Shown here: positions 18,635-45,763 of the stretch, one piece after another
How the letters are laid out: each line of letters opens with the position of its first letter
Numbering within the stretch: position 1 is the first letter of the stretch
Assembly: GCA_945901085.1 (NCBI GenBank)
Contig: CAMDJV010000027.1
Span: 1 to 45,763, forward strand
Origin: Rhodovarius crocodyli
GTDB lineage: Bacteria; Pseudomonadota; Alphaproteobacteria; Acetobacterales; Acetobacteraceae
Direction of reading: 5' to 3'
Length of the DNA: 45,763 nucleotides
Notes under the pieces: generated by a model
What the model saw: the letters and a program-made list of their open reading frames with translations, nothing else
What the model was told of the DNA's origin: nothing
The model's database searches: none
Made by a program: the position numbers and the translations under genes

Positions 18635-21469
18635 TCAGCCAAAGAGGATGTAGTCAGCCCCATCGGATGAGCCATAGCTCGGAGTGGGGAGTTGAGCCTG
18701 GCTCAGGCCGGAGAAGGTCACCGAGGCGTCGGTCACGCCATTGCCATCAAGGTCGCAATGCAGCGTTGCACCCTTGAAACCGCTGGTACCATCGCTCGCG
18801 ACCCAAGTGAACTTGCTCACGCCGGACTTGAAGCCCCAGATGGTCAGGGATTCGTCCGCCGAGAAATCGGTGATGGTGGACCAAGTGGTATTGGTGCCGG
18901 CCCCGCGGCCATCGACGAAGAACCTGTCAGTGCCGCCGCCACCGGCGACGAAACTCGAGCCCTGGCCGCCATCGATCACATCATTGCCCGCACCGCCATT
19001 GACGGCATCATTGCCCGCCCCGGCATTGATGAAATCAGCCTTGTCGCTGCCGAGCACGATATCGGCCGTGGCAGCTCCGAGATACTGGTTCACCAACCCC
19101 GATACCGGCCCGCTATAAGCATCGGCCACGGCGTAGAGGTTCTTGCCACCGATATTGGCGTAGATCAGGCCATTATCGCTCGTGCCAGCCTGCAGGGTGG
19201 CGATGCTCACCGCCGCCGCAGTGCCGAATTTCAGCAATTCCACATTGCTCAACTGGTCCATGCCATCGGCACCCTTGATGACCATCACGCCGTCGCGGAA
19301 GCCAAAACGGTAGGATGATTGGGCGGCGGAGAAGTTCGCCGTATCGGTGCCCGCACCGCCTTCGATCGTATCATTGGCGCCGCCCGCGGTGAGGCTGTCA
19401 TCGCCGCCGCCACCATTGAGCACATCATTGGTCGAACTGCCATTGAGCGTGTCCGCTCCACCGGTGCCGGTGCTATTGACGCCAAAGACGACATTGCTGC
19501 GCAGGCTGAGATTTTCGATGCGCTCATCGCCGCCTTGCGTCGTATCCGCCTGGCCATAGGCGGTGGCGGGGGTGGCGTGGAAGGCCTTCAGATAATCTTG
19601 GAAGGCCTTTTGCTCACCCAACAGCGTGCTGCCGGTATCATCCAGCCCGGCCGAATTGAAGCCGGCCTTGGCGGTGAGGTCGGTTGTCGGGTCGGCTGCC
19701 TTGCTGAGGGTGCCATTGCTCAGCAAATAGCGGAAATTGCTGGCATTGGCCTTGATGGGGTAGGCGTCACCGCCATTGGCGGTGAAGTTCAGCGCGACGA
19801 TGCTGATGGTCGCCGGTGCGTCGGCCACCGCCGCACCATTCTTCCAGATCTGAGCGATCTGATTGCCCGCGAGGTCAACCAGGGCGATGTCGGTAACCTT
19901 ACTGCCCGACGCCCGGGTCGGGTCGATCGCCACGCGCACACCGCCAAGCTGTGCATAGCCGCCATTGCCCGCCGCCAGGGTGGTGCCGTATTCGAGGATG
20001 TTCTTCAGCCCCTGCGCGGTGGTGTCGAACACCATCAGCTTATTGTCGAAGCGCAGTGCGTTCTCGATATCGAGCTGGGAGATGCCGCCGCTGGGCTTCA
20101 CATCGGTGGCGCTGGGCGGAAGCTTGGTGCCATCGCCCCCGACCGAGCCGACCGAGGCGCGCAGGCCACCGCCATTCTTCAGCGACACCATGATGTTGCC
20201 ACCGGTCGCCGCCAGCGCCTTCCAGGCATTGGCATCGGCGGTGACGTCGCCGAAATTCACCTCCTGGGCGCGGCCATACACCCGGTCACCTTCCATATAG
20301 ACATTGGTGTAGCCAAAGATATTGCTGTCCTTGGCGATGATGACATTGTTGATCGCCGTGGTGATGGCATTGACCTGCGAGCCGATGGTGCTGGAGGCGA
20401 CGATCTGCGCCGCCGTCTGGGTCGTGCCATAGGCCGCCTGCAGCGTCGCCTCGTTTGAGGCATAGGCACCATTGATCGCCGTGTTGAGACTGCCCAGCAC
20501 CACCTCGCCATTGGCGTCAAAATCAACCACGAGGCGGCCGAGATAGCTGAACTCGGTATCGGTGGTCACGATCAGGGTGGGTTTGCCGTCCTTGCCGGTG
20601 GCGATGATCGGATAGCTGCCATCGGGATAGGGGGTGGCGTCATGGCCATTGAAGGGGGCGAGTTTGTCCGTGGAATCGACCAGACGGTCATGCGAGCCGC
20701 CGGCGACGACCACATCCACGCCGCTCAGCAGCGGTGCCAGCAGCTTATTGCGCGCCAGGGTATCGAGCTGGTCAACCATGACGATCTTATTGACGCCGGC
20801 CGCGATCAGCGCATCGACCGAGGCCTGGATGACGGCCGCCAGCTCGGGAATTTTCAGGCTGTCATCAATGCTGGCAAGGCCGGTGGTCACGGTACCATTC
20901 GGCGAGCTCTTATTCAGCAATTCATAGGTGGTTGCGCCAACGAAGCCGATCTTCTCACCGCCCACGGTGGAGATGGCATAGGGCGCGATCTTGCCCTTCA
21001 GCGCGCTGACATCAAGGCCGGCATAGTTATTGGTGCTGGTGCCGCCAAGTGATTTGTCTGCGAGGGAGCGCAGCGAGTTATCGGCGGAGACGTTCAGATT
21101 GTTGCTGATGTAAGCGAATTGCGCTCCCACCCATGGGCTGCCGGCGTTGATCGCTGCGGCGAAAACCGGCGAGCCGAGATCGAATTCATGGTTGCCCAGC
21201 GCCGAAACGGTCGTGCCAAAGGCGTTCATGATCGCAATATCCGGCCGGCCCAAAGCCGTCGACCCAATACCAGCAACAGCGCTCAGCGAGGGGTCGGCGC
21301 CGCCCACCAGCCAGGGGCCAGGGATGAAGGTGTCGCCCTCGGCAATCTTGATGGTATTGGCATATTGGTCATCGAATTTGTCGATCAGCGCGCCCATGAT
21401 CGGCGCGGTCTTCACGCCCAGAAGGCCGCTCTCGCCATAATAATGCAGGATTTGCAGTGTGAATGACAT
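18635..21469 (-). CDS. RTX (calcium-binding repeat) protein with 5'-nucleotidase-like body
   Basis: A 944-residue protein. Residues 1 to about 330 resemble the calcineurin-type metallophosphatase domain of 5'-nucleotidases, with AEGDTFIPG (Asp46), GNHEFD (92-97) and a GGSHD segment. Residues about 370-600 resemble the 5'-nucleotidase C-terminal domain. RTX nonapeptide blocks lie near 668-710 and 805-845. There is no N-terminal signal peptide; together with the RTX tail this points to type I secretion, though no secretion genes are present. The N-terminal metal motif, typically an Asp followed by His or Glu, is replaced: LHYYGES, with Gly at the expected Asp. The dinuclear site may be altered or inactive. 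The start has AGAGGACC upstream. Confidence 0.85.
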   Translation of the reverse strand: MSFTLQILHYYGESGLLGVKTAPIMGALIDKFDDQYANTIKIAEGDTFIPGPWLVGGADPSLSAVAGIGSTALGRPDIAIMNAFGTTVSALGNHEFDLGSPVFAAAINAGSPWVGAQFAYISNNLNVSADNSLRSLADKSLGGTSTNNYAGLDVSALKGKIAPYAISTVGGEKIGFVGATTYELLNKSSPNGTVTTGLASIDDSLKIPELAAVIQASVDALIAAGVNKIVMVDQLDTLARNKLLAPLLSGVDVVVAGGSHDRLVDSTDKLAPFNGHDATPYPDGSYPIIATGKDGKPTLIVTTDTEFSYLGRLVVDFDANGEVVLGSLNTAINGAYASNEATLQAAYGTTQTAAQIVASSTIGSQVNAITTAINNVIIAKDSNIFGYTNVYMEGDRVYGRAQEVNFGDVTADANAWKALAATGGNIMVSLKNGGGLRASVGSVGGDGTKLPPSATDVKPSGGISQLDIENALRFDNKLMVFDTTAQGLKNILEYGTTLAAGNGGYAQLGGVRVAIDPTRASGSKVTDIALVDLAGNQIAQIWKNGAAVADAPATISIVALNFTANGGDAYPIKANASNFRYLLSNGTLSKAADPTTDLTAKAGFNSAGLDDTGSTLLGEQKAFQDYLKAFHATPATAYGQADTTQGGDERIENLSLRSNVVFGVNSTGTGGADTLNGSSTNDVLNGGGGDDSLTAGGANDTIEGGAGTDTANFSAAQSSYRFGFRDGVMVIKGADGMDQLSNVELLKFGTAAAVSIATLQAGTSDNGLIYANIGGKNLYAVADAYSGPVSGLVNQYLGAATADIVLGSDKADFINAGAGNDAVNGGAGNDVIDGGQGSSFVAGGGGTDRFFVDGRGAGTNTTWSTITDFSADESLTIWGFKSGVSKFTWVASDGTSGFKGATLHCDLDGNGVTDASVTFSGLSQAQLPTPSYGSSDGADYILFG

Positions 21470-36010: not shown

Positions 36011-37093
36011 TCAGCCCATCACCGCCGGCAAAGCCGCCAGCGCCGCCGCCACATCATCCATGCCATTATAGCCATGGAAGCTGAAGCGCAGCCGCCCCCG
36101 CCCGCCCCAGGCCATCACGCCCCGCGCCTGCAAACCCGCCACGGCAGCGGCTGAGTCAGGGTGGGGAATACAGACATTGGCGCCATGGCGGCTGGGCGTC
36201 CAACAGGGCAGCCCCGCTGCCAGCACGCCCTGCCGCATGGCGGCAGTCAGCGCCAGAACATGCGCCTCCACCGCCGCCGCCCCGGCCCAGCCACGCGCCA
36301 CCGTCACCGCATGGCCCAGCATATAGAGCGGCACAAAGGCCGGGTTGCCGCGGCAAAACCGCATGGCATCCGCCACCAGGGCAGGGGCGTGCCAGTCAAT
36401 CGGCGCCACCAGGCTGAACCAGCCGCCCGAGCGTGGCGCCCAGCCCGGCTGCCGCGCCATATTCCAATAGGCCACCGTGATGCCGGTGCTCCCCAGCAGC
36501 CATTTATAGCAGGAGGAGAAGGCAAAATCGGCCATCGGCGCATCCACCCGCTTCCACCCCGCCGCCTGGGTGAAATCCACGATCAAAGCCGCCCCCACCG
36601 CATCGGCCAGGGCGCGCAGCGCCGGCAAATCAGCCGCCTCGCCGGTGAGTTGCGAAATATCGGAGACCAGAATCGCGCGGGTCCGCGCATCCACCAATCC
36701 AGCAATGCCGGCCAGCCCCTGGCCGATGCGCATCTCCACCCCCGGCCGCAGCGCAAAGCCACCCAGCACCGAGGAATATTCAATATCCGCCGCCACCACA
36801 TTGCAGCCCGGCGGCAATTCCAGGCTCTCGCCCAGCATGGCGCAGCCATCGGCCACCGAGGAGACAAAACCAATCTCCGCCAAGGCCACGCCCCATTCCT
36901 CCGCCAGCAGGCCACGCACCGCCAGCACCTCGGCATCCATCAGGTCGCGCCCGGTGAAGCCGCCATTGCGGTGCTCGGCATAGCGGGCCATGGCCATGGA
37001 GTGGCTGCGCAGCCAGGGCGGCTCCCCGCCGCAGCACAAATGCGCCACACCCGGGCCAATATCGAAGGCCTCGCGCGGGAAGAGCGGGGTCAC
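36011..37093 (-). CDS. Class V aminotransferase-fold PLP enzyme
   Basis: A 360-residue PLP-dependent enzyme of fold type I, related to cysteine desulfurases, kynureninases and isopenicillin epimerases. The Schiff-base lysine is Lys197 in SSCYKWLLGSTG, and Asp173 in LIVDFTQAAGW contacts the pyridine nitrogen. It starts with GTG at 37093, overlapping the upstream Ldh2-type stop (GTGA), so the two are coupled. No obvious desulfurase active-site Cys loop was seen. It might transaminate, deaminate or racemise an amino acid linked to the 2-keto acid made by its partner. Confidence 0.85.
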   Translation of the reverse strand: MTPLFPREAFDIGPGVAHLCCGGEPPWLRSHSMAMARYAEHRNGGFTGRDLMDAEVLAVRGLLAEEWGVALAEIGFVSSVADGCAMLGESLELPPGCNVVAADIEYSSVLGGFALRPGVEMRIGQGLAGIAGLVDARTRAILVSDISQLTGEAADLPALRALADAVGAALIVDFTQAAGWKRVDAPMADFAFSSCYKWLLGSTGITVAYWNMARQPGWAPRSGGWFSLVAPIDWHAPALVADAMRFCRGNPAFVPLYMLGHAVTVARGWAGAAAVEAHVLALTAAMRQGVLAAGLPCWTPSRHGANVCIPHPDSAAAVAGLQARGVMAWGGRGRLRFSFHGYNGMDDVAAALAALPAVMG

Positions 37094-38148
37094 GCCAGCG
37101 CGGCCTGAATGAGCGCCTCGGGCATGCCCAGCCGCGTCGCCGTCACCGCCAGATCGCCCCAGCTCACCTCATCAAGCGGGATGCCATCGCTGCCGCTGCG
37201 CTGGGCGCGGGTGCGCCGCTCCGGCTCGCCCGGCAGCAGCACATTATCCGGTGCCGAGGCTCGCACATGGTCACAAATCGCCTGGACCTCATGGGCAAAG
37301 CCCGGCAGATCGGCCATGCGCGCAGGGTCGAGCATGATGCCGAACATGCCATTGACGATGCCACGATCATTGGGCGTCTGAGGCTGATTGGTGCCGCCGC
37401 CAGTCAACGCGCCGCCGAGAATTTCGCAAATCAAGGCCAGCCCATAACCCTTATGCCCACCAAAGGGCCCCAGCGCGCCGCGCGGCCCCTGGCCATAAAT
37501 CACCGCAGGGTCGGTCGAGGCCTCGCCCAGATGGGTGATCAACACCCCGGGCGGCACCTGCTTGCCGGCATTAAACGCCACCTTCACCTTGCCCACCGCA
37601 ATGGCCGAGGTGGCGAAATCCAAAATGATCGGCTCAGGCGCCATCGGCACGCCGATACAAACCGGATTGGTTCCCATCCTTCCATCCATGCCGCCAAAGG
37701 GCGCCACCACGCCCCGCCCGCTCACCGCATTGACGAAGAACAGCGAAATCATCCCCGCCGCCGCCGCCTGCTCGGCATAGCCGCCGATGCGGCCCAGATG
37801 GTGGGTGCGGCGCAGCCCGAACATCGCCATGCCCTGCGCCCGGCTGGTCTCAATCGCCCAATCCGTCACCGCGCGGCCCACGACCTGGCCAAACCCCATG
37901 CCGCCATCCCACACCGCCATCGCCCCCTCGCCGCCCACCCGGCTGGGCTGGGTATTGGGGTTGATCAGCCCCGCCTCGGCATTCTCGATATAGCGCGGCA
38001 CGAGTTGCACGCCGTGGCTGTCATGGCCGCGAAGATTGGCCTCCACCAGGTCGGAGGCGATTCGCGCGGCCTCAGGGCCGCTGCTGCCCACCGCCTCGAA
38101 CATGGCGCTGACAAGGGTGATGAGGGCAGGGGCGGTGATGCGGGGCAT
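37090..38148 (-). CDS. Malate/L-lactate dehydrogenase family (Ldh2) oxidoreductase
   Basis: A 352-residue NAD(P)-dependent dehydrogenase of the Ldh2/YlbC type, distinct from the Rossmann MDH/LDH family. Characteristic segments are LRGHDSHGVQLVPRY (40-53), THHLGRIGGYAE, GTNPVCIGVPMAP and GGHKGYGLALICEILGGALTGGG. Members act on malate, lactate, ureidoglycolate, 2,3-diketogulonate or delta-1-piperideine-2-carboxylate. ATG 38148 was chosen because it begins the conserved domain; a start 23 codons upstream is in frame but unsupported. It is translationally coupled to the class V aminotransferase-fold gene. Confidence 0.92.
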   Translation of the reverse strand: MPRITAPALITLVSAMFEAVGSSGPEAARIASDLVEANLRGHDSHGVQLVPRYIENAEAGLINPNTQPSRVGGEGAMAVWDGGMGFGQVVGRAVTDWAIETSRAQGMAMFGLRRTHHLGRIGGYAEQAAAAGMISLFFVNAVSGRGVVAPFGGMDGRMGTNPVCIGVPMAPEPIILDFATSAIAVGKVKVAFNAGKQVPPGVLITHLGEASTDPAVIYGQGPRGALGPFGGHKGYGLALICEILGGALTGGGTNQPQTPNDRGIVNGMFGIMLDPARMADLPGFAHEVQAICDHVRASAPDNVLLPGEPERRTRAQRSGSDGIPLDEVSWGDLAVTATRLGMPEALIQAALA

Positions 38149-38284
38149 GGCGTTTCTCGTTCTTGGATCGCGGCAGCACAACACAATTGCCGCCGCAGGG
38201 CCACGGCGACCCTTCAAACCTATCCCCAGGCTACGGCCCTGCGCTATAGCCCAAGGTCTGCGACCAAACCCCCGGGATTAGCTC

Positions 38285-41200
38285 ATGACCATTCATGTCG
38301 CGCTGCGCCACCGCACCAGCTACACCTATGAAAAGCCGGTGGCACTCGGGCCCCAGGTCATCCGCCTGCGCCCCGCGCCGCATGCCCGCACCCCGGTTCT
38401 GGCCTATTCGCTCCACATTTCGCCGCGCGGCCATTTCCTGAACTGGCAGCAGGATCCGCAGGGCAATTTCCAGGCCCGCGTGGTCTTCCCCGAAAAGGTC
38501 ACCCATTTCGACGTGACCGTGGATTTGATCGCCGATATGGCGACGCAAAACCCCTTCGACTTCTTCCTCGAGCCCGGAGCCGAGACCTGGCCCTTCGCCT
38601 ATGATCCTGTGCTGGACGAGGAACTCGCCCCCTTCCGCAAAACCACCGAATCCGGGCCGCTGCTCAAAGCCTTCCTGGCCGATGTCCCCCGCACCGAGCG
38701 GCGCAGCATCGACATGCTGGTGGGCCTCAACCAGATGATCCAAGGCCGCACCAACTACATCGTGCGGATGGAGCCCGGCGTCTGGTCGCCAGAGCAAACC
38801 CTTGAAGAAGGCCGTGGCTCCTGCCGCGACTCTGCCTGGCTGCTGGTCCAGGCGCTGCGCCATCTCGGCCTCGCCGCGCGTTTCGTCTCCGGCTACCTCA
38901 TCCAATTGGTGGGCGACGTAAAACCGGTGACCGGCGCCGAGGGCCCCGCCGCCGATTTCACCGATCTGCATGCCTGGGCCGAGGTCTATCTCCCCGGCGC
39001 TGGCTGGATCGGCCTTGATGCAACCTCAGGCCTGCTGACCGGCGAAGGCCATATCCCACTCGCCGCCTCGCCCGAGCCCGCTTCGGCCGCGCCCATCTCC
39101 GGCATGGTGGAGGAGGCGAAATGCGAATTCGGCTTCGAAATGCATGTCACCCGCGTGCTGGAAACGCCCCGCGTCACCAAGCCCTATAGCCCAGCGCAAT
39201 GGCAACGCATTCTCGCCACCGGCCGCGCCGTGGATGCCGAACTCGCCGCCGGTGATGTCCGCCTGAGCATGGGCGGCGAGCCCACCTTCGTCGCCGATAC
39301 CGATCGCGACGCGCGGGAATGGAACATCGACGCGCTGGGCCCGACCAAGCGGGGCTATGCCGGGCGCCTGCTGCGCCGCCTGGCACCGCTCTGGGCCCCG
39401 GGTGCCGCGCTGCAATATACCCAGGGCAAGCAATACCCCGGCGAGCCGCTGCCGCGCTTCGCCCTCTATTGCCATTGGCGGGCCGATGGCGTTCCAGTCT
39501 GGGAAAACCCCGCCCTGCTGGCCAGCGACGATGACACTGATAACGCCACCCCCGCCGATGCCGCGCACTTCACCAAACTCCTCGCCGCCCGGCTGCAGGT
39601 CGACCCCGCCATGGTGCAATCCGGCCATGAGGACATCCATTACTACCTCTGGAAGGAAGGCCGCCTGCCGGCCAATATCCTCGCCGAGGACAGCAAGCTG
39701 GCCGACCCGCTGGAGCGCGCCCGCCTCAAGCGCATTTTCGCCCAGGGGCTGAGCGCCCCGGTCGGCTCCGTGCTGCCGCTGCGCCGGGTGCAGGCCGAGG
39801 GGGGGGCGCGCCTCTGGCAGACCGGACGCTGGTTCTTTCGCGATGATGTGATGTTCCTAGTCCCCGGCGATAGCCCCATGGGCCTGCGCCTGCCGCTCGC
39901 CTCACTGCCCTGGATCGACCCGGCCGCGCTGGAGGCGGATGCCGAGCCCGATCCCTTCGCCGATACCGCGCCCCTGCCCAGCGCTGAGGCGATGGTGCGG
40001 CGCCGCCAACTCGCCCTCAGCCGTGCCATGGACGCGCTGCATGATGACCTCGGCATCGAGGATTTCCGCCCCCACCCGCAACCCAGCACCCAGGCGGCTA
40101 TAGACCCAGGCCAGATCCGCACCGCGCTCTGCGTCGAGCCGCGCGGGGGGCTGCTGCATGTCTTCCTCCCCCCCGTCTTCGCCGCCGAGGATTGGCTGGA
40201 CCTCGTCGCCGCCATCGAGGGCACCGCCGCCCAAACCGGCCGCAAAATCTTCCTCGAAGGCTATCTGCCGCCCGAGGATCCACGCCTGCCGCATTTCTCC
40301 GTCACCCCCGATCCGGGCGTGATCGAGGTGAATATCCACCCCGCCCATGGCTGGCATGAGGTGGTGGACCGCACCGCCCAACTCTATGAGCAGGCCCGCC
40401 AGGTCGGCCTCACCGCCGAAAAATTCATGATGGATGGCCGCCATGTCGGCACCGGCGGCGGCAATCATGTGGTGATGGGTGCGGCCGATGCCGCCGATAG
40501 CCCCTTTCTGCGCCGGCCGGATCTGCTGAGATCGCTGCTCGGTTTCTGGCACAACCACCCCAGCCTCTCCTATCTCTTCTCCGGCCTCTTCATCGGCCCC
40601 ACCAGCCAGCACCCGCGCATCGACGAGGCGCGGCAGGATAATGTTCGCGAACTGGAAATCGCCTTCGCCGAAGCCGCCAAAACCCGCCCCACGCCGCCCT
40701 GGCTGGTGGACCGCCTCTTCCGCAACATCCTCGCCGACATGACCGGCAATACCCACCGCACCGAGTTCTGCATCGACAAGATGTACAACCCGGACAGCGC
40801 CTCCGGCCGGCGCGGCCTCGTCGAGTTCCGCGGCTTCGAAATGCCGCCGCATGCCGAAATGTCCACCGCCCAGATGCTGCTGATGCGCGCCGCCGTCGCC
40901 GCCTTCTGGAACCGCCCCTATGAACGCCGCCTTATCCGCTGGGGCACCCGGCTGCATGACAATTTCATGCTGCCCGAACTCTGCGGCCAGGATTTTAACG
41001 ACGCGCTGGAAGATCTCGGCCAATTCGGCTTCAAGCTGGACCCGGCCTGGTTCGCCCCCCACATGGAATTCCGCTTCCCGCTGATCGGCGAAACCACGCT
41101 GCGCGACATGCGCCTCGAAATCCGCCACGCGCTGGAACCCTGGCACGTGCTGGGCGAGGAACAGGCGGCCGGCGGCACCGCGCGCTATGTCGACAGCTCG

Positions 41201-41617
41201 GTCGAACGCATCCAGGTGAAACTCGCCAATTTCTCGCCGGAGCGTTTTTCACTGATCTGCAACGGTGTCACAGTCCCGCTCACCGCCACCGAAACCACCG
41301 GCGAATACATCGCCGGCATCCGCTTCAAGGCCTGGGCGCCCTATTCAGCCCTGCACCCCACCATCAAGGCGCAAACACCGCTCACCATCGACATCCACGA
41401 CACCTGGAACAACCGTGCCATTGGCGGCGTGCAACACCACACCATCCACCCGGGCGGGCGCAATTACGACAGCTTCCCGGTCAATGCCAATGAAGCCGAG
41501 GCCCGGCGGCGCTCGCGCTTCTTCACCATCAATCACACGCCGGGCTTCAGCGCGCCGCTGCACGCGGTTCGCAGTGCGGAACATCCGTTGACGCTGGATT
41601 TGCGGGCCTATGCTTAA
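38285..41617 (+). CDS. Transglutaminase-DUF2126 (putative amidoligase) two-domain protein
   Basis: An 1110-residue protein. Residues 1-90 are a transglutaminase N-terminal domain. A transglutaminase-like cysteine-peptidase core follows, with Cys180 (GRGSCRDS), His229 (DLHAWAE) and Asp245 (GLDATSG). From about residue 270 to the end is a DUF2126 region, described in Pfam as a putative amidoligase. It is recognised by LSMGGEPTFV, QYPGEPLPRFALY, EGYLPPEDPRLPHFSVTPDPG, GRHVGTGGGNHVV and HPSLSYLFSGLFIGPTSQHPR (split). The protein would join and hydrolyse amide bonds in some peptide-like product. It heads a three-gene cluster with the ATP-grasp/alpha-E fusion and a second transglutaminase. ATG 38285 has a weak GGGA upstream. 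Confidence 0.93.
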   Translation: MTIHVALRHRTSYTYEKPVALGPQVIRLRPAPHARTPVLAYSLHISPRGHFLNWQQDPQGNFQARVVFPEKVTHFDVTVDLIADMATQNPFDFFLEPGAETWPFAYDPVLDEELAPFRKTTESGPLLKAFLADVPRTERRSIDMLVGLNQMIQGRTNYIVRMEPGVWSPEQTLEEGRGSCRDSAWLLVQALRHLGLAARFVSGYLIQLVGDVKPVTGAEGPAADFTDLHAWAEVYLPGAGWIGLDATSGLLTGEGHIPLAASPEPASAAPISGMVEEAKCEFGFEMHVTRVLETPRVTKPYSPAQWQRILATGRAVDAELAAGDVRLSMGGEPTFVADTDRDAREWNIDALGPTKRGYAGRLLRRLAPLWAPGAALQYTQGKQYPGEPLPRFALYCHWRADGVPVWENPALLASDDDTDNATPADAAHFTKLLAARLQVDPAMVQSGHEDIHYYLWKEGRLPANILAEDSKLADPLERARLKRIFAQGLSAPVGSVLPLRRVQAEGGARLWQTGRWFFRDDVMFLVPGDSPMGLRLPLASLPWIDPAALEADAEPDPFADTAPLPSAEAMVRRRQLALSRAMDALHDDLGIEDFRPHPQPSTQAAIDPGQIRTALCVEPRGGLLHVFLPPVFAAEDWLDLVAAIEGTAAQTGRKIFLEGYLPPEDPRLPHFSVTPDPGVIEVNIHPAHGWHEVVDRTAQLYEQARQVGLTAEKFMMDGRHVGTGGGNHVVMGAADAADSPFLRRPDLLRSLLGFWHNHPSLSYLFSGLFIGPTSQHPRIDEARQDNVRELEIAFAEAAKTRPTPPWLVDRLFRNILADMTGNTHRTEFCIDKMYNPDSASGRRGLVEFRGFEMPPHAEMSTAQMLLMRAAVAAFWNRPYERRLIRWGTRLHDNFMLPELCGQDFNDALEDLGQFGFKLDPAWFAPHMEFRFPLIGETTLRDMRLEIRHALEPWHVLGEEQAAGGTARYVDSSVERIQVKLANFSPERFSLICNGVTVPLTATETTGEYIAGIRFKAWAPYSALHPTIKAQTPLTIDIHDTWNNRAIGGVQHHTIHPGGRNYDSFPVNANEAEARRRSRFFTINHTPGFSAPLHAVRSAEHPLTLDLRAYA

Positions 41618-41636
41618 CGGGGAGGGCGGCTTGTCA

Positions 41637-41684
41637 GGGGGCTTTGCCCCCCGACACCCCCCACCAGGGGCGACCCGCCCCTGG
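41637..41684. repeat. Pair of REP-like hairpins
   Basis: GGGGGC-TTT-GCCCCC (41637-41651) and CCAGGGGCG-ACC-CGCCCCTGG (41664-41684) are perfect stems in the 90-base gap between the DUF2126 and ATP-grasp genes. Their spacing and GC-rich form resemble bacterial REP/BIME pairs. No T tract follows, so transcription may continue through them. Confidence 0.6.
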
Positions 41685-41707
41685 ACCGTGTTTGAATTGG
41701 GTCGCCG

Positions 41708-44185
41708 ATGAGCGCGCCTATGGATGAGATGGTGGATGGCGCAGGGCGGATCAGGCCGCATTGGCGCAATCTGCTCGGTGCCGTCGGTGGCCTCGGCAAG
41801 CCGCAATTGGAGGAGCGCGCCCGACGTTTGCAGCGCGCCGCCGAGGAGGAGGGCATCGCCTCCATCCTGCCCGGCACCAAAGCGGCGGGCATGGGCTGGC
41901 GCTGTGACCCCGTGCCCCTGCCTATGCCGGCAGCCGAATTTGCCACCCTCGAGGCCGGGCTGGCCCAGCGGGCGCGGCTGCTGGAGGCCGTCCTGGCCGA
42001 TCTCTATGGCCCGCAAACTCTCCTGCGCCTGGGTTTGCTGCCGCCGATGCTGGTCTATGGCAATCCGCAATTCCTGCGCGCCTCGCGCCGCGCCAATGCC
42101 CCCGCACCAAACCCCCTGCTTCAACTCTATGCAGCCGAAATGCTGCGCGGCCCGGATGGGCAATGGCGGGTGATGAGTGACCGTGCCGGCCTGGTCTCCG
42201 GCATGGGACACGCGATGGAAAATCGCCGCCTGATGGGCCAGGCGATGCCCGAGGCATTTCGCGCCGCCAAGCCGCGCGGCCTGTCGATTTTTTTCGAGCT
42301 TTGGCAGGACAGCCTGCAACGCCTGGGCCCGCAGCGCGCCGGCGCACCGGCCGTGGCCCTGCTCAGCCCGGGCACCGCTGATCCGCATTGGTTCGAGCAT
42401 GTCGTGCTCAGCCGCGAAATCTCGGCTGCGCTCGTCGAGCCGGGCGACCTCACGGTGCGCGGCGGCGCACTCTTCCTCAAGACCCTACAGGGCCTGCAGC
42501 CCATCGATGTGCTGCTCTCCCGGGTCGAGGCCAATACGCTCGACCCGCTGGAATTCCCCGAAGCCGATGCCGCAGGCGGCGTGCCCGGCGTGCTGGATGC
42601 GGCGCGGCATGGCGCCCTGGCGCTGGTCAATGCCCCGGGTGCCGACCTGGCCGAATCCCCAGCCCTCGCAGCCTTCCTGCCGGCCTTGTGCGAGCATCTT
42701 CTGGGCGAGAGCCTCTTGCTGGAAAGCCTGCCCACGCTCTGGCTCGGCAGCCCAGGCGCCATGGCGCAAGTGCTGGCGGCAGGCGAGCCCATCCTCATCC
42801 GCCCCGCCATGGATGGTGCCGCCCCGGGCGAGGTCTATACCCCCGCCATGGCCCCCCGCCTGGAGGCCGCGCCGGGCGCCTGGTGCGCCACCTGGCTGCC
42901 CACCGCCTCGGTCGCGCCGTGTTTTTCCGGCACCGCCCTGGCCCCCCTGCCGCTGGCGCTGCGGCTTTTTGCGGTCAGCGATGATACCGGCTGGCATGCC
43001 ATGCCCGGTGGCCTCGCGCGCGTGCTCGATGGCACCGCACCCATGGCCGGGCGGCTGCCGCGTTCGGGCTGGTGCAAGGATGTCTGGGTGCTGGCCGAAG
43101 AAGAAGCACTGCCGATCATCGGCCCCGCCGCGCAGCAATTGCCCCCCATCGCCATACGCCGCAATTCCGGCGCCATCCCCTCCCGCGTGGCCGACAACCT
43201 CTATTGGCTGGGCCGTTATGTGGAGCGGCTGGACCGCGCGGCGCGGCTGATCCGCGCCACCCTCACCCGCCTGCGCCGCGGCGCGCCGCTGCCGCGCGAG
43301 ATCGCCGAGGTCGCCGCCCTGGCGCGTTGCCTGCGCGAGGCCGGGCTGATCGATGCCGAGGCGCTGCCCGGTGGTGGCTCCACCACGGCGCTCGCCGCCG
43401 CCCTGGCCCATGCCGCGCGGCCCGAGGGTGCTGTCGGGCAATTGCAGGCCCGCATCGCCAATCTGACCGAGACGGTGCGCGACCGGCTGACCGATGACAT
43501 GCACGCCACCTTCAATCTCAGCCTGCGCGCCGCCCGCGCGGCCGGCGAGACGGCGGGCACCGGCCTCGAATCCCTCTCCCGCGCCATGGTGGCCAATCTG
43601 CGCTTCGCCACCGCCGTGGCCGGCGTGGCCAGCGAGAATATGGTGCGCGGCGGTGGACGGCTGTTCCTGGAACTCGGCCGCCGGCTGGAGCGCTCGCAGG
43701 CGGTGCTGGCCGAGATCGGCCTGGTGCTGGACCAGCCGCCCGCGCGCATCGAGGCCGGCTTGCGCCTCGTGCTGGAACTCTGCGACAGCGTGATCACCTA
43801 TCGCAGCCGCTACCTCGCCGTGCTGCAGCCCACCCCGGTGCTCGACCTTGTGCTGGCCGACCCATCGAACCCGCGCGGCCTTGCCTTTCAGATCAGCGCC
43901 ATCCAGGCCGCGCTGGCCGAGGTATCCGGCCTCACAGAGGACCCCCTGGTGGATGAGGCCGGCGCCCTGTCGCGCGATGCCGAGGCGTTGGTGCAATCCA
44001 TCCTGGCCTCGCCCGAGCAGGCGGTGGCCGCCGCCATGCTGCCGCCGCAACTGTCCGAGATGGCCGACCGCCTGGGCGGGCTCAGTGACGGCGTCACCAG
44101 GCGCTATTTCGCCATGCTGCCGGTCGCGCGCTCGCTGGGCCTCGATGGCCCGGTGGCAGTACCGGCCGAGGTGCTCCCCACATGA
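41708..44185 (+). CDS. Circularly permuted ATP-grasp / alpha-E fusion protein
   Basis: An 825-residue fusion. Residues 1 to about 480 are a circularly permuted ATP-grasp protein (DUF404/DUF407). It is shown by VLADLYGPQ, VYGNPQFLRA, SDRAGLVSGMGHAMENR, HWFEHVVLSREI and AFLPALCEHLLGESLLLESL. Residues about 485-815 are an alpha-E domain (DUF403), beginning SGAIPSRVADNLYWLGRYVERL and almost entirely helical. The two parts are commonly separate neighbouring genes (COG2308 and COG2307). ATP-grasp enzymes form amide bonds through acyl phosphates; the alpha-E role is unknown. Its stop overlaps the next transglutaminase start (ATGA). The operon pairs a ligase with two transglutaminase-fold proteins. 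Confidence 0.92.
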   Translation: MSAPMDEMVDGAGRIRPHWRNLLGAVGGLGKPQLEERARRLQRAAEEEGIASILPGTKAAGMGWRCDPVPLPMPAAEFATLEAGLAQRARLLEAVLADLYGPQTLLRLGLLPPMLVYGNPQFLRASRRANAPAPNPLLQLYAAEMLRGPDGQWRVMSDRAGLVSGMGHAMENRRLMGQAMPEAFRAAKPRGLSIFFELWQDSLQRLGPQRAGAPAVALLSPGTADPHWFEHVVLSREISAALVEPGDLTVRGGALFLKTLQGLQPIDVLLSRVEANTLDPLEFPEADAAGGVPGVLDAARHGALALVNAPGADLAESPALAAFLPALCEHLLGESLLLESLPTLWLGSPGAMAQVLAAGEPILIRPAMDGAAPGEVYTPAMAPRLEAAPGAWCATWLPTASVAPCFSGTALAPLPLALRLFAVSDDTGWHAMPGGLARVLDGTAPMAGRLPRSGWCKDVWVLAEEEALPIIGPAAQQLPPIAIRRNSGAIPSRVADNLYWLGRYVERLDRAARLIRATLTRLRRGAPLPREIAEVAALARCLREAGLIDAEALPGGGSTTALAAALAHAARPEGAVGQLQARIANLTETVRDRLTDDMHATFNLSLRAARAAGETAGTGLESLSRAMVANLRFATAVAGVASENMVRGGGRLFLELGRRLERSQAVLAEIGLVLDQPPARIEAGLRLVLELCDSVITYRSRYLAVLQPTPVLDLVLADPSNPRGLAFQISAIQAALAEVSGLTEDPLVDEAGALSRDAEALVQSILASPEQAVAAAMLPPQLSEMADRLGGLSDGVTRRYFAMLPVARSLGLDGPVAVPAEVLPT

Positions 44186-45054
44186 TGTATTGGGTGCGCC
44201 ACATCACCGCCTATGCCTATGACCAGCCGGTCGATCTGGCTGCCCATCTGCTGCACCTCAAGCCGCGCGCCCTGCCGGGCCAGCGGGTGATTCATGCCCG
44301 CATCCGCTGCCAGCCCGCCCCCGACCACGCGACCGAGACGCATGACCATTTTGGCAATGCCGCCACCCGCATCTTCATCGCCGCCCCGCATCAGCATTTC
44401 GAGGTAACGGCCGAGGCGTTGGTCGAGGTTAACTTCGCCCCGCCGCCCCAACCCGAGGCGACGCTGCCCTGGGATGTGGTGGCTGACCAGGCCCAGCGCG
44501 GCTGCGACGAGGCCACGGAATACCTCCATGCCTCAGCCCATGCCCCCGCCCTGGCCGAGGCGGCAGAATTCGCCCGCCCCTGCTTCCCCCCCGGCCGGCC
44601 GGTGCTGGCGGCCCTGCTGCATCTCAATGAGCGCATCGCCACCGAATTCCGCTTCCAGGCCGGCGTGACCTCCATCTCCACCCCGGTGGAGGAGGTGCTG
44701 CGGCTGCGCCGCGGCGTCTGCCAGGATTTCACCCATCTGATGATCGCAGCCCTGCGCGGCCTCGGCCTGCCGGCCCGATATATGTCTGGCTATATCCGCA
44801 CCCGCCCGCTGCCCGGCCAGGAGCGCCGCCGCGGCGCCGACCAAAGCCATGCCTGGGTCGGCGCCTGGCTGGGCGAGCGCGATGGCTGGGTGGGGCTGGA
44901 CCCCACCAATGGCATCGTGGTGCGCGATGAGCATGTGGTGATCGCCTGGGGGCGCGATTTCGCCGATATCTCGCCGCTGCGCGGGGTGATTTTGGGCGGC
45001 GGCGCGCATCACCTGAGCGTCAGCGTTGATCTGGAACCCGCAGAGGGCGGCTGA
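44182..45054 (+). CDS. Transglutaminase-like cysteine peptidase family protein
   Basis: A 290-residue protein with an N-terminal transglutaminase-associated beta domain (YWVRHITAYAYDQPV) and a catalytic core. The core has Cys180 (RRGVCQDF), His223 (DQSHAWVGAW) and Asp240 (VGLDPTNG), a complete triad. It is cytoplasmic, with no signal peptide. ATG 44182 overlaps the upstream fusion gene by four bases (the next codon is also ATG), so it is translated as part of that operon. It may trim, transfer or hydrolyse the amide product made by the ligase partners. Confidence 0.93.
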   Translation: MMYWVRHITAYAYDQPVDLAAHLLHLKPRALPGQRVIHARIRCQPAPDHATETHDHFGNAATRIFIAAPHQHFEVTAEALVEVNFAPPPQPEATLPWDVVADQAQRGCDEATEYLHASAHAPALAEAAEFARPCFPPGRPVLAALLHLNERIATEFRFQAGVTSISTPVEEVLRLRRGVCQDFTHLMIAALRGLGLPARYMSGYIRTRPLPGQERRRGADQSHAWVGAWLGERDGWVGLDPTNGIVVRDEHVVIAWGRDFADISPLRGVILGGGAHHLSVSVDLEPAEGG

Positions 45055-45055
45055 A

Positions 45056-45763
45056 CTACAGCAACCCCTGCCGCCGAAAGGAGAGGTGCTGCCCGCGCCC
45101 GACCACCACATGATCATGCAGCACAATCCCCAGCGCCTCGGCGGCGCGGCGGGTTTCGGCCGTCATCTCAATATCAGCGCGTGAGGGTGTTGGGTCACCA
45201 CTCGGGTGATTATGCACCAAAATCAAGGCGGTTGCGTGCAATTCCAGCGCCCGCTTCACCACCTCCCGCGGATAGACCGGCGTGTGGTTCACCGTGCCCC
45301 GCGCCTGCGCCTCATCGGCGATCAGCCTGTTCTTGCTGTCGAGAAACAGCACGCGAAACTGCTCAATCGGCTCGCGCGCCATCACCGCCGTCAGGTGCTC
45401 GAGCAGCCGCTCCCAATTGTTCAGCAGGTTCTGCGATTTGATTGAGGCGGCAGAGAGCCTGAGTGCCGCGCCCTGCACCAGTTTCAGCGCTGCCGCACCG
45501 GCCTCGCCCATGCCCTCCACCGCCTGCAAGGCGGCTATGGGTGCGGCGATGGTATCGGCAAAACTGCCAAAACGGTCGAGCAGCGCGCGGGCAATGGGTT
45601 TGGTGTCGCGCCGCGGCATGGCGGTGAAGAGCAGCATCTCCAGCATTTCATGGTCGAGCAGCGCATCCGGCCCCGCCCGCAGCAGCCGCTCCCGCATGCG
45701 GGCGCGATGGCCGAGATGCCCCGGCGGCGGCGGCACTTCGCCGGCAAAAAGGTCACCAGCCTC
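45056..45763 (-). CDS. radC: RadC/JAB-domain protein (5' end may lie outside window)
   Basis: The frame stays open to the right edge, so the start may be beyond the window; a GTG at 45736 gives 226 residues. The N-terminal UPF0758 helical region (ARMRERLLRAGPDALLDHE) carries a helix-hairpin-helix (VEGMGEAGAAAL). The JAB/MPN metalloprotease-like domain follows, with HNHPSGDPTPSRAD (His175, His177 and Asp188 counted from the GTG). RadC was once linked to DNA repair, but that role is disputed and its function is not settled. The gene converges on the transglutaminase gene with only one base between their stops. Confidence 0.93.
   Translation of the reverse strand, partial: EAGDLFAGEVPPPPGHLGHRARMRERLLRAGPDALLDHEMLEMLLFTAMPRRDTKPIARALLDRFGSFADTIAAPIAALQAVEGMGEAGAAALKLVQGAALRLSAASIKSQNLLNNWERLLEHLTAVMAREPIEQFRVLFLDSKNRLIADEAQARGTVNHTPVYPREVVKRALELHATALILVHNHPSGDPTPSRADIEMTAETRRAAEALGIVLHDHVVVGRGQHLSFRRQGLL

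Follow-up and report, generated by a model that had tools for sequence, protein, structure and literature searches.

A transglutaminase and DUF2126 cassette in Rhodovarius crocodyli whose fused ATP-grasp/Alpha-E protein lacks the residues of an ATP site

We analyzed a 45,763-nucleotide stretch of the Rhodovarius crocodyli genome (contig CAMDJV010000027.1 of assembly GCA_945901085.1; hereafter, the window), in which three genes on the same strand encode two proteins with a transglutaminase-fold (TG) domain and, between them, a fusion of a circularly permuted (CP) ATP-grasp domain with an Alpha-E domain. These genes, hereafter the cassette, are as follows.

38285..41617, + strand: TG-DUF2126, 1110 amino acids (from the list of open reading frames (ORFs), Pfam, alignments and a structure model)
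41708..44185, + strand: fused CP-ATP-grasp/Alpha-E protein, 825 amino acids (ORF list, Pfam, alignments and a structure model)
44182..45054, + strand: separate TG, 290 amino acids (ORF list, Pfam and alignments)

A gap of 90 bp separates the first gene from the second, and the start of the separate TG gene overlaps the stop of the fused gene by 4 bp. Pfam assigned Bact_transglu_N, Transglut_core and DUF2126 (PF09899; 1239 bits, profile positions 1-826 of 826) to the first protein, CP_ATPgrasp_2 (345 bits) and Alpha-E (183 bits), both above the curated cut-off, to the second, and Bact_transglu_N and Transglut_core to the third. These assignments are far beyond chance, and ORFs and Pfam agree on the three-gene arrangement described by an earlier reading made from the letters of the window (the sequence-only reading). 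None of the three proteins was matched by any NCBIfam model at an E-value of 0.01. In TG-DUF2126, the TG-fold domain occupies residues 6-246 and DUF2126 residues 276-1107, and in the fused protein the ATP-grasp domain spans residues 70-439 and Alpha-E residues 491-801. All three proteins are probably cytosolic, as inspection by eye revealed no signal peptide. The locus is a further member of a known cluster type that others predicted in 2008-2009.

The main new result, as judged from sequence, is that the fused ATP-grasp has lost its ATP site across the whole family. We aligned ATP-grasp domains with one row per locus and type, first 68 fused and 31 unfused domains and then 139 fused and 61 unfused, leaving out separate ATP-grasp ORFs that were shorter than 350 amino acids or scored below 150 bits (first alignment) or 250 bits (rows added later). 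Five hallmarks were scored: the Glu and the Asn of E-x-N, the Lys of A-D-D-K, the loop Lys and the glycine-rich loop. All five were present in 59 of the 61 unfused copies, the exceptions being one copy cut at the edge of its stretch (L071) and one cut by a contig end (L185), whose residues resemble a truncated fused gene. No fused copy had more than one hallmark; 76 of the 139 had none and 63 had one, which was the loop Lys in 61 copies and the Glu and the D-D-K Lys in 1 copy each, whereas the Asn and the glycine loop occurred in none. The fused genes were chosen as single ORFs, which makes their open frames partly a selection effect, and at least one locus occurs in both sets of fused loci (L059 and L128, whose contigs are equal in length). 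The window copy reads S157-D158-R159 where unfused copies have E-D-N and E316-S317-P318 where they have D-D-K, R365 replaces the loop Lys, and the glycine loop is missing. Solved ATP-grasp enzymes use residues of this kind to bind Mg2+ and the phosphates of ATP (PMC2845819, PMC6899670). Lacking Mg2+ ligands, phosphate lysines and glycine loop, the fused protein is probably a pseudoenzyme, and its ATP-grasp domain looks catalytically dead. This is the third and most notable of our corrections to the sequence-only reading, which had tacitly taken the fused ATP-grasp for a working enzyme. The literature searched, which did not cover Iyer et al. 2009, yielded no description of an inactive ATP-grasp in this system.

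Alignments and tree indicate that the fused type without an ATP site is old and shared across phyla. In a tree of 94 fused and 60 unfused ATP-grasp domains, which was built by a quick method, is unrooted and includes some very long rows (L074, L107), a single branch of length 1.28 separated the two types (Shimodaira-Hasegawa-like approximate likelihood ratio test, SH-aLRT, 100). By eye, at least four of the five hallmarks were gone from the fused copies of Granulicella (Acidobacteriota; the loop Lys is retained), Tsukamurella (Actinomycetota) and a Sinorhizobium, and an unfused copy of Paenibacillus (Bacillota) had the hallmarks. The fused clade has preferred residues of its own, which argues against random decay: among the 139 copies, Arg occupies the Asn site in 126, Gly the Ser site in 137, Gln the Arg site in 117, and Glu replaces the first Asp of D-D-K in 133. 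Five further residues (R173, E230, D247, D279 and N308) were invariant in 63 fused rows and would line the pocket. In the window copy, as in L116, L120 and L121, its nearest kin among those shown, part of the derived motif has been lost too. The Alpha-E domain of the fused protein keeps W500, R503, E506, R507, R513, G639, G657, E661 and R662, each in at least 136 of the 139 copies; these include the ER motif (R503, E506 and R507 in the window), each residue of which is present in at least 138. Other residues conserved in unfused Alpha-E were not kept. Median pairwise identity was 0.575 for TG-DUF2126 (55 rows), 0.353 for the fused protein (63 rows) and 0.531 for the unfused ATP-grasp, with DUF2126 the best-conserved part by this measure, the row sets being different ones. 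The Tsukamurella record (148 kb, called a plasmid) carries a fused ATP-grasp/Alpha-E gene and a TG gene between aspS and alaS (L198:8866-12248, + strand), with no DUF2126 beside them.

Structure models agreed with the domain assignments for the ATP-grasp part of the fused protein and for the TG domain of TG-DUF2126. The model of the fused protein had a mean predicted local distance difference test (pLDDT) score of 90 (63 sequences), and its best Foldseek match was 3n6x (E 3.7e-25), followed by human, yeast and plant glutathione synthetases and YgiC; the protein retains the ATP-grasp fold and part of the pocket. No convincing Alpha-E match was found among the 50 matches listed. For TG-DUF2126 the model had a pLDDT of 84 (55 sequences), and its TG domain matched 3isr and TgpA.

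Both TG proteins carry the complete Cys-His-Asp triad that the sequence-only reading had ascribed to them. In TG-DUF2126 the triad is C180-H229-D245, invariant in an alignment of 18 sequences, and in the separate TG it is C180-H223-D240, invariant among 17, the window being included in each. In larger sets, again with the window, it was complete in 153 of 153 DUF2126-fused TG domains. Of 148 separate TGs, a set that also includes TGs from other operons and two more from this genome, 146 had the complete triad. Those two genes lie on contigs C5 and C9, and no ATP-grasp, Alpha-E, DUF2126 or Anbu (a proteasome-family protein) was found in the surrounding 18 and 17 kb; the stand-alone gene on C9 (L196:7352-8143, - strand) sits between TssG, of type VI secretion, and an IstB-like gene. 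Two Achromobacter records have an additional TG-like gene directly before a complete TG-DUF2126 (L187:9968-10783, + strand; L194:1423-2376, + strand), with Ser at the position of the active-site Cys, suggesting that it may be an inactive transglutaminase.

We surveyed 249 Pseudomonadota genomes, a sample drawn by the search tool, and found DUF2126 in 75, Alpha-E in 145, Anbu in 99, and DUF2126 together with Anbu in 48. For the 74 genomes other than that of the window, we read the DUF2126 gene with up to 20 kb of surrounding sequence; the window itself brought the total to 75 loci. TG and DUF2126 formed one ORF in 74 of these 75 loci, ATP-grasp and Alpha-E were fused in 68, and the collinear gene order of the window recurred in 55. 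A fused ATP-grasp/Alpha-E gene was likewise present in 71 of 80 named loci, which were the best 80 of 590 from a scan of species genomes and are skewed to close relatives; in two of the nine loci without it (L177 and L185) the ATP-grasp is cut by a contig end. The presence of the fusion in most DUF2126 loci indicates that it is the standard form of this cassette, and the earlier impression that the fusion is unusual was not borne out. Some loci depart from this form. Three of the closest named loci (L117, L119 and L122, from a Proteobacteria metagenome-assembled genome, an Acetobacter sp. and an Acidisphaera sp.) have TG-DUF2126 and no fused gene within the stretch read. In L114 (genome G218), DUF2126 is an ORF of 714 amino acids with partial profile matches and the TG lies in a separate ORF, an arrangement that looks degraded or rearranged. 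In-frame TAG codons lie within the unfused ATP-grasp match of three genomes (G139, G062 and G016) and within the DUF2126 match of another (G053).

The genome (3.85 Mb in 91 contigs) holds a second Alpha-E gene on contig C14, adjoined by genes for an unfused CP-ATP-grasp and for Anbu:

Contig C14:38166-38894: Anbu, with Thr1, Asp17 and Lys32 counted by eye

The same three residues have been named as catalytic candidates in Yersinia Anbu (PMC6376114). A second proteasome-family match, on contig C29, is probably HslV. The sequence-only reading had noted that a proteasome-like protease was absent and had proposed a search of the rest of the genome; the absence holds for the cassette, in which no Anbu or other proteasome-like gene was found, and fails for the genome, where that search led to Anbu on contig C14. 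In the survey, all 75 DUF2126 genomes had an ATP-grasp of unfused type (E 1.1e-205 or lower), a type assigned by score in the 75 genomes, with the hallmarks checked in the 61 unfused copies only. All 75 also had a high-scoring Alpha-E place, and the 29 such places that could be checked inside loci were all unfused. Alpha-E numbered two in 68 DUF2126 genomes, three in 2 and one in 5, compared with one in 49 and none in 2 of the 51 Anbu genomes without DUF2126. Both ATP-grasp types lay within about 20 kb in 27 of the 75 loci, and Anbu lay within about 20 kb in 12. Co-occurrence with the unfused-type ATP-grasp, the Alpha-E counts and the shared loci support the view that these are two modules of one system and that the DUF2126 cassette is an add-on to an ATP-grasp/Alpha-E core.

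Related operons in other bacteria are switched on by nitrogen limitation, and a link to this genome would be by analogy. In Burkholderia cenocepacia, NtrC and sigma54 activate BCAM1233-1236, a cluster that encodes DUF404/407, DUF403 and two TG proteins (PMC5491218), and BCAM1236 would correspond to TG-DUF2126. The TG PP_2686 of Pseudomonas putida and its neighbours, presumably an Anbu-type operon, rise under nitrogen limitation (PMC7801951), and in marine metagenomes these domains correlate with urea genes (PMC3597751). Within 200 bp upstream of TG-DUF2126 we found a sigma54-like site in 20 of 153 regions, compared with a mean of 0.35 and a maximum of 3 across 20 dinucleotide-shuffled sets. 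Scanning the opposite strand of the 153 regions, which are not independent of one another, gave 7 such sites. Unfused operons had a sigma54-like site in 4 of 60 cases. The 350 bp upstream of the window cassette, scanned against shuffles of the same base make-up, held no such site, and for this reason we set aside nitrogen regulation of the window cassette.

From the observed gene content, triads, loss of ATP-site residues and co-occurrence we infer the reactions, partnerships and product, and we propose, with a probability of roughly 0.55, that DUF2126 is the ligase of the cassette, that the TGs act on amide bonds and that the fused protein is a non-catalytic partner. DUF2126, which appears to be the sole plausible ATP-using ligase in the cassette, would couple a carboxylate, by way of its acyl phosphate, to an amine, and the TG domains would form, exchange or cleave amide or isopeptide bonds. 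The fused ATP-grasp/Alpha-E protein would be a pseudoenzyme that binds or hands over the substrate of the ATP-grasp/Alpha-E/Anbu module, whose working ATP-grasp would be supplied from the other contig. A wider version of this proposal, to which we give slightly less than even odds, holds that a pseudo-ATP-grasp/Alpha-E protein, found in at least three phyla (Pseudomonadota, Acidobacteriota and Actinomycetota), split once from an Anbu-type pair and is now a non-catalytic bridge coupling the Anbu-type ligase to DUF2126; DUF2126 was seen beside the fused gene in Pseudomonadota and Acidobacteriota.

Several points weigh against this proposal. The hallmark positions were equated with Mg2+- and phosphate-binding residues from fold, order and spacing, without a sequence alignment to glutathione synthetase, and a profile search of the unfused ATP-grasp against the PDB gave 3n6x as its sole match and no link by sequence to glutathione synthetase. 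Loss of the motif residues leaves other chemistry possible in the fused protein. Foldseek matched DUF2126 only weakly to glutamine synthetase (E 0.03 and above, probability up to 0.97); a carboxylate-amine ligase of the DUF2126 type has been placed in the glutamine-synthetase-like superfamily (PMC2588565). The hand-off role is itself something that we infer, and no specific interaction of Yersinia Anbu with the other proteins of its operon was detected (PMC6376114). Seven of the 75 loci lack a full fused gene: two have an unfused set in its place (L057 and L068), one has TG-DUF2126 alone (L062), one has Anbu and no ATP-grasp in its stretch (L069), two lie at contig ends (L088 and L101) and one is split (L114). 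These loci suggest that DUF2126 may work without the fused protein. The lack of a sigma54-like site upstream of the window cassette counts on the same side.

One alternative, implied by the sequence-only reading, is that the fused ATP-grasp and DUF2126 are both working ligases that jointly build a peptide or a tag, which is reportedly what comparative genomics predicted in 2009. The CP_ATPgrasp and Alpha-E matches well above cut-off and the retained ATP-grasp fold speak for it, as does the release of phosphate from ATP by the ATP-grasp of a Yersinia Anbu operon (PMC6376114). However, the Yersinia operon encodes ATP-grasp and Alpha-E as separate proteins, and the Asn of E-x-N occurs in 0 of 139 fused copies, each with at most one of the five hallmarks; two working ligases seem improbable to us. 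It is somewhat easier to imagine, if still unlikely, that the fused protein has acquired a new chemistry, as an enzyme or as a receptor, its ATP site rebuilt for another ligand. The derived residues common in the fused clade and the five invariant residues, which may line the pocket, would fit such a site, but the window copy and its three nearest kin miss part of the derived motif, and no ligand is known. A further alternative is a degradative system for nitrogen limitation, in which the TGs would attack amide or isopeptide bonds by hydrolysis or deamidation, leaving DUF2126 to recycle the pieces. Control by NtrC and sigma54 in B. cenocepacia, induction of PP_2686 in P. putida, the correlation with urea genes and the excess of upstream sigma54-like sites over shuffles speak for this reading, the least improbable of the three; the reverse-strand sites, the dependence among regions and the empty upstream region of the window cassette weigh against it. 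Regulation is also silent on direction, and an ATP-using ligase in the cassette argues for synthesis and against degradation; we consider a degradative role doubtful.

The product of these widespread clusters, with DUF2126 in 75 of 249 Pseudomonadota genomes, is a question that has stood since the 2009 prediction, and knowing which of the presumed ligases can work narrows the search, with DUF2126 and the unfused ATP-grasp as the candidate enzymes and the fused protein as a putative binding partner. The two modules may act together though they lie on different contigs. Fused proteins should not be named ATP-grasp enzymes, and, if the wider version of our proposal is true, many annotated ATP-grasp proteins would not be enzymes of that kind. 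If the fused ATP-grasp is dead, an assay of the fused protein for ATPase activity should be negative.

Other features of the window are the two genes flanking the cassette, a recombinase gene at the window start, suggesting the edge of a mobile element, and a gene for a long repeat protein:

37090..38217, - strand: malate/lactate-family dehydrogenase, divergent, upstream of the cassette
45056..45736, - strand: radC, convergent, directly downstream of the cassette
208-2013, + strand: large serine recombinase (Resolvase, Recombinase and zinc ribbon domains)
18635-21469, - strand: protein of 944 amino acids with a 5'-nucleotidase C-terminal domain and RTX calcium-binding repeats

We looked for an extra conserved neighbour of the cassette by clustering the 1219 ORFs that lie nearby in up to 155 loci, and none of the resulting families occurred in more than 18 loci. 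The 14 largest families all lacked a member in the window, and some resemble antisense ORFs or proteins of close kin.

The cassette can be set beside several known systems. Iyer et al. in 2009 are said to have predicted a peptide-synthesis/tagging system of CP ATP-grasp, glutamine-synthetase-like ligase, Alpha-E and Anbu. The cassette has the same domain families; here, however, Anbu is encoded on a different contig, beside an unfused ATP-grasp and an Alpha-E of its own, and the ATP-grasp of the cassette is fused and without ATP-site residues. The 2009 prediction is cited in PMC5666114 and PMC6376114, and a 2008 paper had already named the fusion of a TG domain with a carboxylate-amine ligase, giving Rv2566 as its example (PMC2588565). 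In the literature searched we found no experimentally defined product of such clusters, and this, together with the two intact triads and the DUF2126 amidoligase, upholds the description of the locus in the sequence-only reading as a peptide- or amide-bond cluster with no experimentally defined product. Rv2569c is, we take it, the TG of the Mycobacterium tuberculosis cluster. It has been reported as a protease (PMC11081392). The Anbu operon (ATP-grasp, Alpha-E, transglutaminase and Anbu, as in Yersinia bercovieri) has ATP-grasp, Alpha-E and TG proteins homologous to those of the cassette, and this genome, like the bacteria that carry the operon, has an ATP-grasp/Alpha-E/Anbu set; unlike the cassette, the operon has no DUF2126 and encodes ATP-grasp and Alpha-E as separate proteins. 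Systems of the Rlo/Rim type, in which a RimK-like ATP-grasp is paired with an aspartic protease (PMC12239564), were set aside. The best fold match of the fused protein and closest solved structure, 3n6x (a putative glutathionylspermidine synthase of Methylobacillus flagellatus), matches the unfused ATP-grasp of this genome with 637 bits and has the E-D-N, A-D-D-K and K...SGGYG motifs that the fused copy of the window lacks. The next-best fold matches, the eukaryotic-type glutathione synthetases, differ in being functional ATP-dependent ligases that have Mg2+, lysine and G-loop sites (PMC2845819).

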